Assembly: GCF_025399835.1 (NCBI RefSeq)
Contig: NZ_JAODVR010000001.1
Location: forward strand, 3,410,001 to 3,474,000
Reading direction: 5' to 3'
DNA: 64,000 bases
From: Haloarchaeobius sp. HME9146
GTDB lineage: Archaea > Halobacteriota > Halobacteria > Halobacteriales > Natrialbaceae
Both the position numbers and the translations under genes were made by a program. How positions within the stretch are numbered: the first letter of the stretch is position 1; every line of letters begins with the position of its first letter. The notes beneath the pieces were generated by a model. It made no database searches. It had not been told where the DNA came from and saw nothing but the letters and a program-made list of their open reading frames with translations. Shown piece after piece: positions 36,349 through 44,767 of the stretch.

Positions 36349-39300
36349 ATGACGGATGGTGGAACACGCGTCCTCGTCGTCGGCTTCACGCCGGACGAGG
36401 CGAATCAGATGCTGCCCACGCCCCCAGAACGCGTCGTGACCGCGGCGGACACCGCGACCGCACTCGACGCTGTAACGAGCGATGGCGCAATCGACTGCGT
36501 CGTCAGCGACTACCAGCTCCCCGACGGCGACGCCTTCGACCTCTACGACGCGCTTTCCGACGGCACCGACACCGTCCCGTTCCTCCTCTACACCGCCGAG
36601 GGCGACGAAACGGTTGCCGGTCGCGCCCTCGCCGCCGGGATGGACGCCTACGTGCCCGCCAGCGACGGCGTCGACACCCTGCAGTCCCGACTCGCTGCCG
36701 CACTCGACTCGGAGGCGGCCACGGTCGACCGGGACCGCCTCGAACTCGTCTACGAGCAGGCACCACTCGCCATCGTCGAGTCCGATCCCGACGGGAACGT
36801 CGCCGCCTGGAACGATGGTGCGACCGACCTGTTCGGCCACACCCGCGCCGAAGCCCTCGGCGAGAACCTCATCGACCTGGTCGTCCCCCCGGAGGAACGC
36901 GCAGTCGTCCGGGAGGTGTGCGAACGGAACCTCTCGCGGGCCGCCGTCGACGTCAACGTCAACGGGAACGTGACGAAAGACGGCGACCGGCTCACGTGCG
37001 AGTGGTACAACACGTCCCTGACCGACGAGGACGGGAACATCGTCGGCTCGCTCTCGTTCGTCCAGAACGTGACCGACCGGGTCGGCCGCCGGGAGACCGT
37101 CGAGGACCTCCAGGCGATGTCGCGCGAACTCATCCGCATCGAAGAACGCGAGCGCGTCGCCGAGTTCGCGGTCGAGGCCGCCCGCAGCGTGCTCGACCAG
37201 ACGTACACGGCAGTGTTGCTGTACGACGAGTGCGAGGATGTCCTGGTCCCCGCAGCCACTACCGACGAGGCCGAAGCCATGCTGGCCGATACCGACGAGT
37301 TCGACGGCGACAAGAGCCTCACCTGGGAGGTGTTCGCGTCGGGTGAAGCGACCATCATCAACGAACGCGCCAACGAGCGGACGCTGCTTCCCGAGGACTC
37401 GGGCATGCAGAGCACGCTGGTCGTCCCGCTCGGCGACCACGGCGTGCTCGCGTTCGCCGACGAGGGCCCCGACGGGTTCGACCAGACCGAGGCGCACCTG
37501 GCCGGCATCCTCGCGTCGACCACGACGGCGGCTCTCGACCGGAGCGCCCAGGGCGAGGAACTCCGCCGCCAGCAGGCCATCGTCGAGGCCGCCGGCGACG
37601 CCGTCTTCGCGCTCGACGAGGACGCCTACTTCCGGACAGTCAACGACGCGATGACCGAGTTGACCGGCTACGACCGCGAGTCGTTGCTCGACATGCCCGC
37701 CTCGGAGATACTCGACGCCGAGTACCTCGAACGGGGGCGGACCGAACTCCTCGACCTCATCGACGACGACGACCGCGATTCGACCACCTTCGAGGTCGAG
37801 GTGCAGACCGCGGACGGGGACCGCGTCCCCTGCGAGGCCACCCTCGCCCTCCTGCCCGACGAGTCGAGCTTCGACGGCACCGCCGTCGTGGTCCGGGACA
37901 TCACCGAACGAAAACGCATGGCGGACGAACTCGTCGAGCAGAAACGCAAGATAGAGAACCTCCACGGGGTCGCCTCGGACCTCGACGACTGCGAGACTGA
38001 GGCCGAGATATGGGACCTCACCGTCGAGGCGGCCGAGGGCATCCTCGATTTCGACATCTGTGGCGTCGACCGCGTCGAGGGCGAGTACCTCGTCTCGGCC
38101 GGCATCTCCTCCGAGATAGAGCCACAGGGCTACAAGAAGCGCTCGCACGTCTCCGACGGCATCGCGGGCAAGACACACCGCACCGGCCGGTCGTTCCTCA
38201 TCGACGATATCCAGGGCGACAACGAGGCCACGCCCGAGCACCGGACCTACCGGTCGCTGCTGTCGGTCCCCATCGACGACAAGGGCGTCTTCCAGGCCGT
38301 CTCTGACGAGGTCGCCGGGTTCGACGAGTCCGACCTCGAACTCGCCGAACTCCTGGCGAGCCACGTCGCCGACGCCATCGAACAACTGCAGTTCGAGGCG
38401 CAACTGCTGAACGAGCGCGACCTGTTCGCGGCCCTGTTCGAGAACGTCCCCGACCCGGTGGTCTACGCCCATCACACGGACGACGAGCCCGTCATCCAGG
38501 AGGTGAACGCGGCGTTCGAGCGCGTCTTCGGGTACAAGCAGGCAGAGATCGCGGGCGAGCCGCTCGACGACCTCATCGTGCCGCCGGACCGCCACGCCGA
38601 GTCGGACTACATCAACGAGCGCTCGCAGGCCGGTGAACTGGTCGAACAGGAGGTGAAACGTCGGACGACGGACGGTCTCCGTGACTTCCTGATGACCGTC
38701 GTCCCGGTCGAGTTCGACGCGAAGAACCCCCGCACGTTCGGCGTCTACACCGACATCACCGAGCGCAAGGAGCGCCAGAAGCGCGTCGAGATACTGAATC
38801 GCGTCTTGCGACACGACCTGCGCAACGGGATGAACATCATCCGTGGCTCGGCCGAGATGCTCGCGGACGTGGTCGAGGGGACGACCGCCGTCGGCTACGC
38901 CGAGACCATCCTCAGCCGGGCGGACGACCTCGTCAGCCTCGCCGAGAAGACCCGGGCGGTCGAGCGCACGCTGGACCGCGACCACACGGCCACCGGCCCG
39001 GTCGACCTCCACGAGAGCGTCCAGACCGCCATCTCGCGGCTCACCCGGGAGTACCCGCAGGCGACCATCACCACCGACCTCCCCGAGGACGCCGCGGTCC
39101 GCGCCGACGACCTGCTCCGGACCGCCATCTACCACGTCATCGAGAACGCACTCCAGCACAACGACACCGACGACCCACACGTCCACGTCACGGCGCTCCA
39201 GGACGAGGGGTCGGACCAGTTCCTGCGACTCTCCGTCGCCGACAACGGCCCCGGCATCCCGGAGGAAGAGCGCGCACTCATCGCGGAAGAACAGGAGATA

Positions 39301-39468
39301 ACGCAGCTCAGACACGCCAGCGGGCTCGGCCTCTGGCTGGTCAACTGGGTGGTCACGCAGTGTGGCGGCTGGCTGTCGTTCGAGGACAACGACCCGCGCG
39401 GGACCGTCGTCACCATGACGGTCCCGCTCGCGGTCGCCGACGAGACCGTGCAACCGGCCGACGACTGA
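36349..39468 (+). CDS. Large multi-domain sensor histidine kinase (receiver-PAS-GAF-PAS-GAF-PAS)
   Basis: A 1039-residue cytoplasmic sensor kinase. Order: receiver (1-120; CVVSDYQLPDGDAFD keeps the phospho-acceptor Asp), PAS (132-245; GNVAAWNDGATDLFGH), GAF (255-405), PAS (410-525), GAF (535-690; YRSLLSVPIDDKGVFQAVS), PAS (695-820), HisKA with His in RHDLRNGMNIIRG near 822, and the ATPase (930-1035; IENALQHNDTDD, ADNGPGIPEEE, SGLGLWLVNWVV). The GAF domains suggest sensing of small molecules or redox state. The signal is unknown. GTG 36322 is an alternative start. Confidence 0.9.
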   Translation: MTDGGTRVLVVGFTPDEANQMLPTPPERVVTAADTATALDAVTSDGAIDCVVSDYQLPDGDAFDLYDALSDGTDTVPFLLYTAEGDETVAGRALAAGMDAYVPASDGVDTLQSRLAAALDSEAATVDRDRLELVYEQAPLAIVESDPDGNVAAWNDGATDLFGHTRAEALGENLIDLVVPPEERAVVREVCERNLSRAAVDVNVNGNVTKDGDRLTCEWYNTSLTDEDGNIVGSLSFVQNVTDRVGRRETVEDLQAMSRELIRIEERERVAEFAVEAARSVLDQTYTAVLLYDECEDVLVPAATTDEAEAMLADTDEFDGDKSLTWEVFASGEATIINERANERTLLPEDSGMQSTLVVPLGDHGVLAFADEGPDGFDQTEAHLAGILASTTTAALDRSAQGEELRRQQAIVEAAGDAVFALDEDAYFRTVNDAMTELTGYDRESLLDMPASEILDAEYLERGRTELLDLIDDDDRDSTTFEVEVQTADGDRVPCEATLALLPDESSFDGTAVVVRDITERKRMADELVEQKRKIENLHGVASDLDDCETEAEIWDLTVEAAEGILDFDICGVDRVEGEYLVSAGISSEIEPQGYKKRSHVSDGIAGKTHRTGRSFLIDDIQGDNEATPEHRTYRSLLSVPIDDKGVFQAVSDEVAGFDESDLELAELLASHVADAIEQLQFEAQLLNERDLFAALFENVPDPVVYAHHTDDEPVIQEVNAAFERVFGYKQAEIAGEPLDDLIVPPDRHAESDYINERSQAGELVEQEVKRRTTDGLRDFLMTVVPVEFDAKNPRTFGVYTDITERKERQKRVEILNRVLRHDLRNGMNIIRGSAEMLADVVEGTTAVGYAETILSRADDLVSLAEKTRAVERTLDRDHTATGPVDLHESVQTAISRLTREYPQATITTDLPEDAAVRADDLLRTAIYHVIENALQHNDTDDPHVHVTALQDEGSDQFLRLSVADNGPGIPEEERALIAEEQEITQLRHASGLGLWLVNWVVTQCGGWLSFEDNDPRGTVVTMTVPLAVADETVQPADD

Positions 39469-39489: not shown

Positions 39490-40566
39490 CTATTCGACCA
39501 GCGGCATGTTGAACGTCGTCTCGTTCTCGAGGACGTGCTCCCACGTCGCCTCGCACTCGCAGGAGACCTGCTCGAAGACGGTCGGGTCCTGGCGCAGGTC
39601 GAAGTCCTTGATGGCTTTCTGCACCCGGTCGTCGCACTCGCCGCAGTTGTGCGGGCCGCGCTCGGAGCCGTGGCCGACCGGGTCCGAGACGACGATGACG
39701 TCCTCGTCGGCGGTCGATTCGAGCACCCTGGCGACCGACCAGAGCCACGGCGGCCGGTAGCCACCGCGGAAGAACAGGTCGTCGACCATGGTGTAGCGCT
39801 GGACGTTACACGGGTTCATCGAGACGGTGTGACAGCCCTCGACGGCGGCACAGCGCCGGACCGAGGACTGCATATCCTCGAGTGCCTCCGGCTCCGAGAG
39901 GAACGGCGGCTTCATCAGGAGATAGGCCTTCACGCCGGCGTCGGCGGCGACGGCCTCGGCGCAGGCGTCCTCGAAGTCCGCGAAGTCGAAGTACTTGTTC
40001 ACGCAGTCGTGACGGACGCGGTCGGTGGCGGTCTCGAGGCCGACGGCCACGTCGGTGTCGAGACCCTGCTCGACGAACTCGTCGAGTTTCGCCTCGGTCA
40101 CGAAATCCGGGAGCGACTCGACGACGATGCGCTCGCGGTCGCCGAACGTCTCCGCGATGGCCTGGCGGGTCTCGGCCGGGACCTCGCGCTCGTCGAGGAA
40201 CGACCCGGAGGTGTAGATCTTGATGAGGCCCGACTTCTCGTCTGCTTCCTCGGCCTCGTGGTCGAGACAGACCTGTATCTGGTCCATCAGCGCCTCGTGG
40301 GAGACGGAGCCGCCCTCGACCGATTCCGCGACGTAGCCACACATCGTGCAGCCGCCGGCGCGGGCCCAGCGACAGCCGCCCGTGTTGAGGATGATGGTCA
40401 GCGACTGGTAGACGCCACTGGGCGTGTTGTCCTCGTCCAGCCAGACCCGCGTCGGCTCGTGCGGGTCGTACGTCTTGTCCTTCTTGGCGCGGATGTCGCG
40501 CATCACCTTGTTGTGCGCGTCCATCCCCTTGCCCTTCTCGTAGACCTCGGGCGTGGGCTTGCTCAT
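39490..40566 (-). CDS. raSEA: Archaeosine synthase radical SAM subunit RaSEA
   Basis: A 358-residue radical SAM lyase that works with ArcS to turn the lysine-adducted preQ0 at tRNA position 15 into archaeosine. Its iron-sulfur motif is the unusual Cys-x7-Cys-x2-Cys (GGCRWARAGGCTMCGY, about 65-77), the hallmark of this group. Further support comes from IYTSGSFLDEREV, DTDVAVGLETATDRVRH and KAYLLMKPPFLSEPEAL. The partners arcS (56908-58659) and tgtA (59476-60960) are in this window but not adjacent. Confidence 0.92.
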   Translation of the reverse strand: MSKPTPEVYEKGKGMDAHNKVMRDIRAKKDKTYDPHEPTRVWLDEDNTPSGVYQSLTIILNTGGCRWARAGGCTMCGYVAESVEGGSVSHEALMDQIQVCLDHEAEEADEKSGLIKIYTSGSFLDEREVPAETRQAIAETFGDRERIVVESLPDFVTEAKLDEFVEQGLDTDVAVGLETATDRVRHDCVNKYFDFADFEDACAEAVAADAGVKAYLLMKPPFLSEPEALEDMQSSVRRCAAVEGCHTVSMNPCNVQRYTMVDDLFFRGGYRPPWLWSVARVLESTADEDVIVVSDPVGHGSERGPHNCGECDDRVQKAIKDFDLRQDPTVFEQVSCECEATWEHVLENETTFNMPLVE

Positions 40567-40980: not shown

Positions 40981-42930
40981 ATGGTCGACGTTTCCGTCGA
41001 GAACGCGACGCTCCGCGCCGTCGACCGGGCGAACCGGTCGATAGAGCTCGGCGTCGTCGGATGGGACCAGCCAGCCGACGGACCGTCGATCCCCATCGAA
41101 CTCGACACGACGGTGGCCGGGCGCGTCCTCGAACTCGCCGTTCCCGACGTGCTCGTCGAGGTGTCGCTCGATGGGGACGGCTACGAGAAGCTCCCCGAGT
41201 ACAAGACCGTCCAACAGCTCGCCGACGGCGAGTACACCGTGAAGCTCTCCGGCGAGTTGACCGCCTACATCCGGTTCGACGGCGCGGCGACCCTGCGTCG
41301 GCGGGCCGGCGGGACGGCGGAACTCACGTTCGAGCATCCGACCGCGGTCACGCTGGGCTTCTGGACCATGGTCGACTATCCGGAGCACACCCTGACGGTG
41401 CCGCCGACACCGACCGGGGTGGCGACGGCGCTCACGCACCTCTCGAGCGCCCACATCCGGATGACACCGGACCGGACGCTGCCGGGCTGGCGCGAACACC
41501 CACCCCTGGTCGAACTCGGCGACGAGACCCACGTCCCCGACGCGGTCCGCGAGGCGACGCCCGAGACCGGCATCGAACTCGTCGTCCCGGACGCGCTGGC
41601 ACCGCTGTTCCCGGCGACCCCGCTGGTGCACTACCTCGGGGCGACGGTCCGCGTCGAGTCCGGGCGAGAGCGCCCCCTGCTGCGGGCACCCGCGGTCGAC
41701 ATCGCCCACGAGTTCTCGGCGCTGCCCGACTTCCAGTTCGAGGCCGCCGACCTCTTCGAGCGGGTGTTCTACCTCGACTGTATCATCCGGGCCGCGGGGC
41801 CGGATTCGCAGGGCGACCTCGTCGAACTCGACCTGCTGGCGGCCATCGACACCGACCTCACCGCGACCTACGACGCGTCGGTCGCCGAGCGGCTGGCGCA
41901 CGCCCTCGACCCGCAGGTCGCCGCCCTCGACGACCGGTTGCCGTCACGCAACTACGTACTGTTCGCGGAGCCAGCGCCCGAACACGTCCCGGTGCTCCCG
42001 TTCGCGATGTCCTACCTCGGGCGGGTGTACCTCCCGTCGGCGGCCGGCACGCTCGACCTGACCCGGGAGCGCCGCCGGGGAATCGTCGGCTGGCTCGGGG
42101 AGGGGAGCCACCCGGACGCCTTCGAGGCCCGCCCCCGGGCGTATCAGCATCGCCTCGAACACCTCGCCGCGGGCGACAGCGAGACGTCGATACTCGTGGT
42201 CGGTACGGCCGACCGTGCCGCCGCCATCCATGCCGTCGCCGACCGCTACGAGGCGGCCGTCGACGAGACGGCCGCGACCGTCTCCCGGCTCGTCGGGCCG
42301 ACCCGCGTCGCGCTCAGGGACGCCCTCGAGACCCGGACCGACCTCGTCCACTTCCTCGGCGACGCCACCGCCGGGTTCCACTGTGCCGACGGCACCCTCG
42401 CCGTCGAGGACCTCTTCGTCTCGAAGGCACGCACCGTCGTCCTCGACGGGCCGACCGACGCGGGACTCGCGGCCGGCCTCGTCGACCGCGGAAGCGTCGC
42501 TGGCGTGGTCCGGACGGACGAGGGGACGGCGGTTCCGACGACCCTCGTCGAGTTGCTCTCGAAGGGGTACGGCGTCGACCTCGCCACTCGAATCGCCCGC
42601 GAGTTCGGCGACGGCGAGACGTTCCGCGTCGTCGGCGACGGCACCAACGCGCTGCCCGAAGACGACAACGTGAGTTCGATTCCGCTCACCGTCACCGCCA
42701 ACGGCGACGCGACGTTCGAGGTCGTGGGCGAACCCGGCGGTGCCATCGCCGGCCTCGTGTGGCACCCCGACGTGGAGGGCGTCTCCCAGCGGCTGTTGAG
42801 CGGGCGACGCCCGTTCACCGTCTCCGCGATGGAACTCACGGCCATCCTCCGGGACCCCGACTACCTCGTCGTCAGCGACGGCGAGCTATCGTGGTCCGGC
42901 GACCTCGCACCGTTCTACCCCGTCGTGTGA
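40981..42930 (+). CDS. CHAT-like protein with apparently lost catalytic dyad
   Basis: A 649-residue cytoplasmic protein. Its first 340 residues (VDVSVENATLRAVDRANRSIEL; FEHPTAVTLGFW; ERVFYLDCIIRAAG) follow a haloarchaeal family I recall, which ends in a CHAT-type caspase-like fold. The C-terminal region reads LVHFLGDATAGFHCADGTLAV near 456 and VVLDGPTDAGLAAGLVDRGSVAGVV near 487. In CHAT relatives the first stretch has HYIGH and the second LNACGS, bearing catalytic His and Cys. Here Asp and Gly-Pro stand in those places, so it is probably inactive as a protease. It precedes a histidine kinase by 61 bp. Confidence 0.72.
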   Translation: MVDVSVENATLRAVDRANRSIELGVVGWDQPADGPSIPIELDTTVAGRVLELAVPDVLVEVSLDGDGYEKLPEYKTVQQLADGEYTVKLSGELTAYIRFDGAATLRRRAGGTAELTFEHPTAVTLGFWTMVDYPEHTLTVPPTPTGVATALTHLSSAHIRMTPDRTLPGWREHPPLVELGDETHVPDAVREATPETGIELVVPDALAPLFPATPLVHYLGATVRVESGRERPLLRAPAVDIAHEFSALPDFQFEAADLFERVFYLDCIIRAAGPDSQGDLVELDLLAAIDTDLTATYDASVAERLAHALDPQVAALDDRLPSRNYVLFAEPAPEHVPVLPFAMSYLGRVYLPSAAGTLDLTRERRRGIVGWLGEGSHPDAFEARPRAYQHRLEHLAAGDSETSILVVGTADRAAAIHAVADRYEAAVDETAATVSRLVGPTRVALRDALETRTDLVHFLGDATAGFHCADGTLAVEDLFVSKARTVVLDGPTDAGLAAGLVDRGSVAGVVRTDEGTAVPTTLVELLSKGYGVDLATRIAREFGDGETFRVVGDGTNALPEDDNVSSIPLTVTANGDATFEVVGEPGGAIAGLVWHPDVEGVSQRLLSGRRPFTVSAMELTAILRDPDYLVVSDGELSWSGDLAPFYPVV

Positions 42931-42991: not shown

Positions 42992-44767
42992 GTGGCAGAT
43001 TCGACGAAGATTCTGACCAGCGGCGGCCGGGTCGGCGACGCGCTCGCGGCGACGTACGACGTCGTCCGCAGCGCCGACCCGACGACGGCCGACCTCGGCG
43101 CCGTCGACTGCGCGGTCGTGGACGCGGCCGCCGTCCCCGCCATCAGGGGACAGACGGCGACGCTCCCGGTCATCGCGGTCGTCCCCACGTCGGCCGACGC
43201 CGCCACCGTCATCGAGGACGGCGCGACCGACGTCGTCCGAGCGGACGCGCCGGACGCCGTCGTCGTGGCTCGCGTCAAGTCCGTCCTCGCCGGGACGACC
43301 GGCGACACCGTCACCTCGACCGAGCAGCGCCTCGACGTGCTCCTCGAACGGACGACCGACTTCGACGCGCTCGACGCCGAGAGCGAGATATACGAGCACG
43401 CCATCTCGGTCGCCCGGACCGTCCTCGACCTCGACGCCTGTTCCATCTGCCGGACGGAGGACGGCGAACTCCGCCCGGTCGCGACCGTGGCCCGCCGACT
43501 CCACCCCGCCAGTTTCCACGCGACCGGGGAGGGCATCGCTGGCCGGACCATCGAGACGGGGACGACACAGCTGGTCGACGACGTGCGGGCCGACGCGGAC
43601 GCAAAACCGACCGCCGAGGACTACCGGGCGGTCCTCTCGGTCCCGCTCGGCGACGACGGCGTCTTCCAGGCCATCTCGACGACCAATGGGGCGTTCTCGG
43701 CGGCCGACCGCGAGCTGGCGGAGCTCCTCGTGGCGAGCGTCGAGCACGCACTCGAACGGGTCCGCTTCGAGGACATGGTCACCCGCGAACGCGACCGGTT
43801 CGCCGCGCTGTTCCAGAACGTGCCCGATGCGGCGCTCCAGTACACCTTCGTGGACGGCGAACCGTACATCGACCGGGTGAACTCCGCGTTCGTCCGCCTG
43901 TTCGGCTACGACCCCGACACGGCCGTCGGGCAGTCCGTCGCGGACCTCATCGTCCCGGAGTCGGACGGGGCGGAGACGCTGTATGCGGCCGTCGACGGTG
44001 GGAAGCGACTCGACCAGGAGGTCGTCCGCCTCACCGAGGACGGGGAACGCCCGTTCCTCCTCCGGAGCGTCCCCATCTCGACCGAGGACGACGAGCCGAC
44101 CGGCTACTTCATCTACACCGACATCGCCGACATGAAGGCACGCGAGCGCCGGCTCACCCGCCAGAACGAGCGCCTGGACGCGTTCGCCTCGGTGGTGAGC
44201 CACGACCTGCGCAACCCCCTGAGCGTCGCCAGGGGCTACACCGAGACCGCCTACGACGGCGATGACCCGTCCCTCCTGCCCGACGTGCTGGTCGAACTCG
44301 ACCGGATGGACCAGATGATACACGAACTCCTCACGCTCGCCCGCGAGGGCGACATCGTCGGCGAGACCGAACCGGTCTCGCTCGGCGACGCGGCCAGAGA
44401 GGCCTGGTCACACGTCGAGACGGCCGACGCGACGCTCTCGGTGGGCGACGACGTGACGCTGGAGGCGGACGCCGACCGACTGGAAGAACTGTTCGAGAAC
44501 CTCTTTCGCAATACGATAGAGCACGCGGGCGACGCCGCGACGGTCGTGGTCGGGAAGACGCCGGACGGCTTCTACGTCGCCGACGACGGGCCCGGCATCC
44601 CGGACGAGCAGAAGGAGGCGGTGCTGGAGATGGGGTACACGACCGCCACGGGCGGGACCGGGTTCGGGCTCGGTATCGTCTCCGAGATCGCGACCGCCCA
44701 CGGCTGGTCGGTCGCCGTGACCGACAGCGAAAACGGCGGGTGTCGCTTCGAGTTCCGGACCGACTAG
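42992..44767 (+). CDS. GAF-PAS sensor histidine kinase
   Basis: A 591-residue cytoplasmic kinase. The first about 105 residues resemble a receiver fold but with weak acidic pocket (VDCAVVDAAAVPA). A GAF domain (130-265) has EDYRAVLSVPLGDDGVFQAIS, closely paralogous to the second GAF of the kinase at 36349. PAS follows (270-385; PYIDRVNSAFVRLFGY). HisKA has SHDLRNPLSVARG with His near 402. The ATPase has NLFRNTIEH, DDGPGIPDEQ and GTGFGLGIVSEIA. It starts at GTG 42992 and overlaps by 4 bp, convergently, the membrane-protein gene at 44764. Confidence 0.88.
   Translation: MADSTKILTSGGRVGDALAATYDVVRSADPTTADLGAVDCAVVDAAAVPAIRGQTATLPVIAVVPTSADAATVIEDGATDVVRADAPDAVVVARVKSVLAGTTGDTVTSTEQRLDVLLERTTDFDALDAESEIYEHAISVARTVLDLDACSICRTEDGELRPVATVARRLHPASFHATGEGIAGRTIETGTTQLVDDVRADADAKPTAEDYRAVLSVPLGDDGVFQAISTTNGAFSAADRELAELLVASVEHALERVRFEDMVTRERDRFAALFQNVPDAALQYTFVDGEPYIDRVNSAFVRLFGYDPDTAVGQSVADLIVPESDGAETLYAAVDGGKRLDQEVVRLTEDGERPFLLRSVPISTEDDEPTGYFIYTDIADMKARERRLTRQNERLDAFASVVSHDLRNPLSVARGYTETAYDGDDPSLLPDVLVELDRMDQMIHELLTLAREGDIVGETEPVSLGDAAREAWSHVETADATLSVGDDVTLEADADRLEELFENLFRNTIEHAGDAATVVVGKTPDGFYVADDGPGIPDEQKEAVLEMGYTTATGGTGFGLGIVSEIATAHGWSVAVTDSENGGCRFEFRTD

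Follow-up and report, generated by a model that had tools for sequence, protein, structure and literature searches.

Genes and domains at the locus

The window analyzed here is a 64,000-bp stretch of the genome of Haloarchaeobius sp. HME9146. Its plus strand carries an open reading frame of 649 amino acids (positions 40981–42930), hereafter the pseudo-CHAT gene, whose ATG start is consistent with the nearest relative, L040 (MVDVGLSDATLRAVDR). The initial annotation described the product as a CHAT-type caspase-like protein that seemed to have lost its catalytic His and Cys; the reading frame was present, and the two peptides quoted for it corresponded to residues 455–473 (LVHFLGDATAGFHCADGTL) and 486–510 (VVLDGPTDAGLAAGLVDRGSVAGVV). 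Models, fold search, and conservation delimited an N-terminal beta-sandwich (residues 1–132, positions 40981–41376, plus strand). The fold search on the model gave it a weak, borderline likeness to galactose mutarotase (best Z 8.2), and the conservation analysis located the clade-specific residues GWD (27–29) and R48 in it. A middle alpha/beta region is visible in the models (residues 140–320, positions 41398–41940, plus strand) but is without a fold assignment, and fold search together with a profile match placed a predicted CHAT/caspase-fold domain behind it (residues 324–561, positions 41950–42663, plus strand).

A histidine kinase gene of 591 codons lies on the same strand (positions 42992–44767); its GTG start is 61 bp past the pseudo-CHAT stop codon, the spacing that had been reported initially. 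The kinase has the architecture GAF-PAS-HisKA-HATPase and contains an SHDLRNPL motif, the N-box Asn, and a G1 box of the DDGPGI type. It was identified as the partner on the basis of Pfam matches, linkage, trees, and motifs. According to hydropathy, neither protein has an evident membrane segment.

Fold and family assignment

The AlphaFold2 model of the window protein, built on a 29-sequence alignment, had a pLDDT of 89.6 and a pTM of 0.89. Residues 324–561 matched the folds of gingipain (Z 18.1), DdvA (15.4), SAVED-CHAT (14.8), separase (14.3), and Csx29 (12.6). At the sequence level, the family profile matched SAVED-CHAT with an E value of 0.0013, and the HFIGH and LNAC of that protein aligned with the family motifs; a profile made from dyad-bearing members alone did not find PDB relatives. 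Neither Pfam, its CHAT model included, nor NCBIfam gave a convincing match for the window protein, and the family was therefore built up from relatives. One paralogue from the same genome matched PF12770 at an E value of 2.7e-4, below the model cut-off, and some records of dyad-bearing paralogues are annotated as CHAT domain-containing or caspase family proteins. Fold and homology assign the window protein to the CHAT/caspase fold (clan CD) as a high-confidence prediction. The caspase-like fold proposed at the outset is thus predicted for residues 324–561 by both the model and its fold matches.

A p20 pseudo-orthocaspase was also considered and rejected, as there was no Peptidase_C14 match in Pfam and the sequence relatives were CHAT proteins. 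A back-translated pattern search of the genome contigs gave no match. Residues 330–552 of the model resemble a domain of DdvA (PDB 8rw5, Z 15.4), a signaling protein that acts as a transmembrane anti-sigma factor.

Loss of the catalytic dyad

Thirteen positions of the CHAT domain were tabulated for 51 dyad-bearing sequences and 46 sequences of the dyad-less clade. The window protein aligned without gaps across both motifs. Asp461 (positions 42361–42363, plus strand) stands at the place of the dyad His, and Asp489-Gly490-Pro491 (positions 42445–42453, plus strand) replaces Asn-Ala-Cys, with Pro491 at the dyad Cys; the substitution by Asp and Gly-Pro had been read correctly from the sequence. 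All 51 dyad-bearing relatives retained both catalytic residues, whereas the His was found in 1/46 and the Cys in 0/46 of the dyad-less clade. Chance or misalignment can be ruled out, since the window protein belongs to a set of 46 in which the Cys is missing throughout and the His occurs once. The same motif evidence speaks against an active CHAT protease.

Invariant in the 51 dyad-bearing relatives were Asn409, Met412, Glu415, His457, His461, Cys468, Asn489, Cys491, Thr511, Ala515, Gly519, and Tyr548, and position 490 was Ala in 50 of them. Their motifs read HYIGH, HFIGH, HYVGH, or HFVGH, and LNAC (once LNGC). The HYIGH and LNACGS motifs that the initial annotation had attributed to related haloarchaeal proteins are real, with representatives in three paralogues of the same genome and in 51 dyad-bearing relatives in all. 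Among the tabulated positions, only His457 and Cys468 survived in the dyad-less clade (43/46 each); Met412 was absent, and Thr511 was not among the residues listed. No newly fixed His or Cys column was found in the 46 members, the highest remaining below 60%. Because the dyad-bearing relatives likewise have His457 and Cys468 without exception, next to an intact dyad, the alternative His and Cys sought by alignment do not represent a relocated dyad.

Some residual chemistry could nevertheless be retained, given that His457 and Cys468 persist in 43/46 members. Enzymatic activity might then continue through these two residues or through acidic residues at positions 461 and 489, the latter being Asp or Glu in 45/46. 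We consider this very unlikely: the equal invariance of His457 and Cys468 beside the full dyad shows that they serve a different purpose in those proteins, residue 461 varies (D, E, N, R, P, T, or S), and conservation of the CHAT domain is reduced. Acidic residues do end both former dyad strands: position 461 is Asp or Glu in 31/46 members, and position 489 is Asp in 42, Glu in three, and Pro in one. Together with the frequent Arg511 (20/46), they raise the idea of a receiver-like phospho-acceptor or a metal site serving the kinase. Such a role is very doubtful in our view; if real, it would mean that a protease fold had come to serve as the response partner in two-component signaling.

The data support the view that the window protein is a pseudo-protease without the His/Cys dyad, and it probably has no protease activity. 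This was also the view of the initial annotation, and it agrees with the disappearance of the dyad and most other invariant active-site residues across an old clade under purifying selection.

Phylogeny and distribution of the dyad-less clade

Matches to the family were present in 54 of the 61 genomes sampled. The search for an active paralogue recommended initially yielded three in the same genome, each of which has kept both dyad residues. On a first tree, computed with the two motif stretches removed and with L052 excluded, the dyad-less members occupied one side of a single branch (SH-aLRT 100); with shuffled labels, about 27 changes were needed. A more careful tree of 44 thinned rows, from which four active-site stretches had been removed, recovered the clade with 100/100 support, and every one of 200 bootstrap trees needed only one change of state. 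The clade was nested, with dyad-bearing groups outside it on every side and a dyad-bearing sister group (93/88). This position indicates that the direction of change was loss, which requires a root outside the dyad-less clade, and the long branch to a distant dyad-bearing group suggests such a root. The trees point to one ancestral loss of the dyad; long diversification under purifying selection followed. The distant relative L052 (L052:2080-4575), absent from the later sets as well, has HCDLA and SGC at the motif places and may represent a separate loss.

A full-length profile of the clade cannot separate dyad-less from dyad-bearing members, and the distribution was mapped with a profile of residues 1–60, which separated both classes in held-out tests except for rows with a trimmed N-terminus. 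This profile detected the clade in 31/125 genomes and 10/29 genera of the family of the window, as well as in two genomes of a further family (f7). Class-wide matches below approximately 60 bits were not counted as dyad-less, since at least one of them (G414, 54.7 bits) has the dyad. The module of dyad-less CHAT protein and kinase belongs to Natrialbaceae and one further family, and the dyad-less family is old and still maintained in salt-loving archaea.

One member (L042, from genome G006, which is classed in the same family as the window) coincides with a plasmid gene of Natrononativus amylolyticus, and this identifies the family as Natrialbaceae. The plasmid gene is annotated as “hypothetical protein” and lies directly downstream of a gene annotated as “ATP-binding protein.” In genus g26, the kinase gene lies directly upstream of the dyad-less genes. 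The proteins of this genus (L199–L205) have a long, variable, low-complexity stretch ahead of the CHAT motifs.

Selection and shift of conservation

The dN/dS values, obtained by Nei-Gojobori counts with our own script, were 0.14–0.39 in nine close pairs of dyad-less genes. They were near those of the partner kinases (0.13–0.32) and above those of dyad-bearing pairs (0.09–0.16). Among pairs of 30–45% overall identity, the CHAT domain was the best conserved part of dyad-bearing proteins (0.49) and a weak part of dyad-less ones (0.32), whereas conservation of residues 1–132 rose from 0.27 to 0.36. Residues G27, W28, D29, R48, P120, R261, Y646, and P647 were fixed specifically in the dyad-less clade. 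The shift of conservation and the newly fixed residues fit a role in binding better than one in catalysis. The missing dyad and the faster divergence of the CHAT domain relative to dyad-bearing relatives might also be expected of a decaying gene without function. That explanation is strongly disfavored, however, by the 46 full-length frames in one deep clade, the low dN/dS, the newly fixed residues, and the universal linkage to a kinase.

Linkage to a histidine kinase

A same-strand histidine kinase gene adjoined the dyad-less gene in 45/45 cases in which both flanks were available, directly or via tandem dyad-less copies, and none of 37 dyad-bearing genes had such a neighbor. Genes were called with our own untrained codon-score script, and opposite-strand calls shorter than 100 amino acids between tandem copies were skipped. 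The kinase was upstream in 36 cases and downstream in nine, including the window, and many of the pairs overlapped by 4 bp. In Pfam, the window kinase and ten others all had GAF, PAS, HisKA, and HATPase domains, and the H-box His, the N-box Asn, and the D-x-G-x-G of G1 were intact in 37/37 module kinases.

Within its taxonomic family, the window kinase had its best matches mostly among kinases of other modules. On the kinase tree, the 37 module kinases clustered together and separately from similar kinases encoded elsewhere, with an SH-aLRT of 89, slightly below the usual 95; the second kinases of the window, L080, and L082 also carry the label “cassette” there, as they lie within four genes of the module. 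Patristic distances of kinases and dyad-less proteins were correlated over 36 pairs (r 0.86) and after thinning to 25 pairs (r 0.85), and 0/5000 permutations reached these values in either case. At least two diverged modules were found in each of the genomes G015, G077, G006, G075, and G076. In these genomes each kinase tracked its neighbor and not the genome it came from, as would be expected if the two genes had been duplicated together. The linkage of the dyad-less CHAT gene and the kinase as a co-inherited module is well supported by these comparisons. The tie to the adjacent kinase suspected in the initial annotation was borne out, as the adjacency was universal in the clade and absent from dyad-bearing relatives, and the trees matched.

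Tandem arrays on one kinase gene were observed twice, with three dyad-less CHAT genes (L041:2601-9540) and with two (L078:4689-8868). In the window, the module is flanked by a radical-SAM gene (positions 39490–40566, minus strand) and by a second, possibly associated histidine kinase gene (positions 36349–39468, plus strand) of the architecture REC-PAS-GAF-PAS-GAF-PAS-HisKA-HATPase. A relative of the second kinase with 57% identity immediately precedes the module in L080, as does a close homologue in L082, but the gene is not found clade-wide. A radical-SAM gene also flanks the module at both loci, where the gene order is different from that of the window. This suggests an older four-gene neighborhood of the second kinase, the radical-SAM gene, and the module.

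Proposed function

In our favored interpretation, which we hold to be probable, an ancestral CHAT protein underwent a single loss of its His/Cys dyad and of most of the conserved pocket around it. It then became dedicated to a single lineage of soluble GAF-PAS histidine kinases as their partner, and inheritance and duplication have kept the two genes together ever since. The two proteins would be co-produced and in contact with each other. Their N-terminal side may recognize a ligand or some third protein through the N-terminal domains of the CHAT partner, whose dyad-less CHAT domain may provide a docking surface, setting the activity of the kinase or relaying its state. Of the scaffold or sensor roles proposed initially, we favor a sensing adaptor that would set kinase activity. 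Physical contact, the direction of signaling, and a ligand are conjectural parts of this model.

Next in standing, and unlikely, is a role as the output of the kinase, which would modify or switch the protein so that it acts elsewhere, for example by competition with dyad-bearing CHAT paralogues for partners or substrates in the manner of cFLIP and caspase-8. In its favor, dyad-bearing paralogues are present in the same genome, and kinase and partner form a conserved, co-inherited pair without a response regulator; however, the dyad-less clade shows no conservation on the substrate side of the CHAT pocket, which makes the protein ill-suited to compete for the same substrates.

Every case examined adjoins one particular kind of kinase gene, which suggests the conversion of an inactive enzyme into a signaling component. 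The clade is an archaeal caspase-fold group that lost its dyad once and became the fixed, apparently co-duplicating companion of a motif-intact histidine kinase; it would be a natural example of how two-component signaling can recruit an enzyme fold. For many haloarchaeal kinases no response partner is known, and the pseudo-CHAT protein is a concrete candidate partner for one kinase lineage. A search of openly licensed full text found no published description of haloarchaeal CHAT proteins with kinases.

Comparison with known systems

The human protein cFLIP(L) is a pseudo-caspase whose inactive caspase fold is retained for regulation (for a review, see PMC7586951). It differs from the window protein in belonging to an unrelated lineage and in acting on caspase-8, and it is not known to have a kinase partner. 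Bacterial pseudo-orthocaspases are dyad-less members of the p20 family, mostly with Tyr or Ser replacements, which are described as scattered and convergent in phototrophic bacteria (PMC6426788). They share with the window protein a dyad-less prokaryotic caspase fold with a presumed origin from active relatives, whereas the present group is archaeal and kinase-linked, belongs to the CHAT family, has a replacement of the Asp-Gly-Pro type, and forms one clade. In the same survey, which dealt with p20 caspase homologues, each of the 93 archaeal sequences had the dyad, and there were no archaeal pseudo-variants (PMC6426788), and an earlier survey gave the same result for archaeal metacaspases (PMC3501461). 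As both surveys were limited to p20 families, the dyad-less CHAT clade extends rather than contradicts them.

SAVED-CHAT (PDB 8tl0) and Csx29/TPR-CHAT share the predicted CHAT fold of the window protein (Z 14.8 and 12.6), but they are CRISPR-linked proteases with a working dyad. Csx29 uses H615/C658 as its catalytic pair and has, besides the active CHAT2, a pseudo-caspase domain, CHAT1 (PMC10028731); a likeness to the window protein is seen in this pseudo-caspase domain ahead of the active one. PADLOC defense models gave no matches at an E value of 0.01 for the pseudo-CHAT protein, the kinase, or five relatives, and no CRISPR or defense link of the window module was found with them.

The dyad-bearing haloarchaeal CHAT paralogues have the same domain layout as the window protein and 22–36% full-length identity to it, but differ in their full His/Cys site. 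Among 32 LNACGS genes with both flanks, none had a kinase neighbor, glyA was on the upstream side in 28, and tbsP was downstream in 26. These members, L206 and L207 among them, thus mostly lie between glyA and the transcription regulator gene tbsP.
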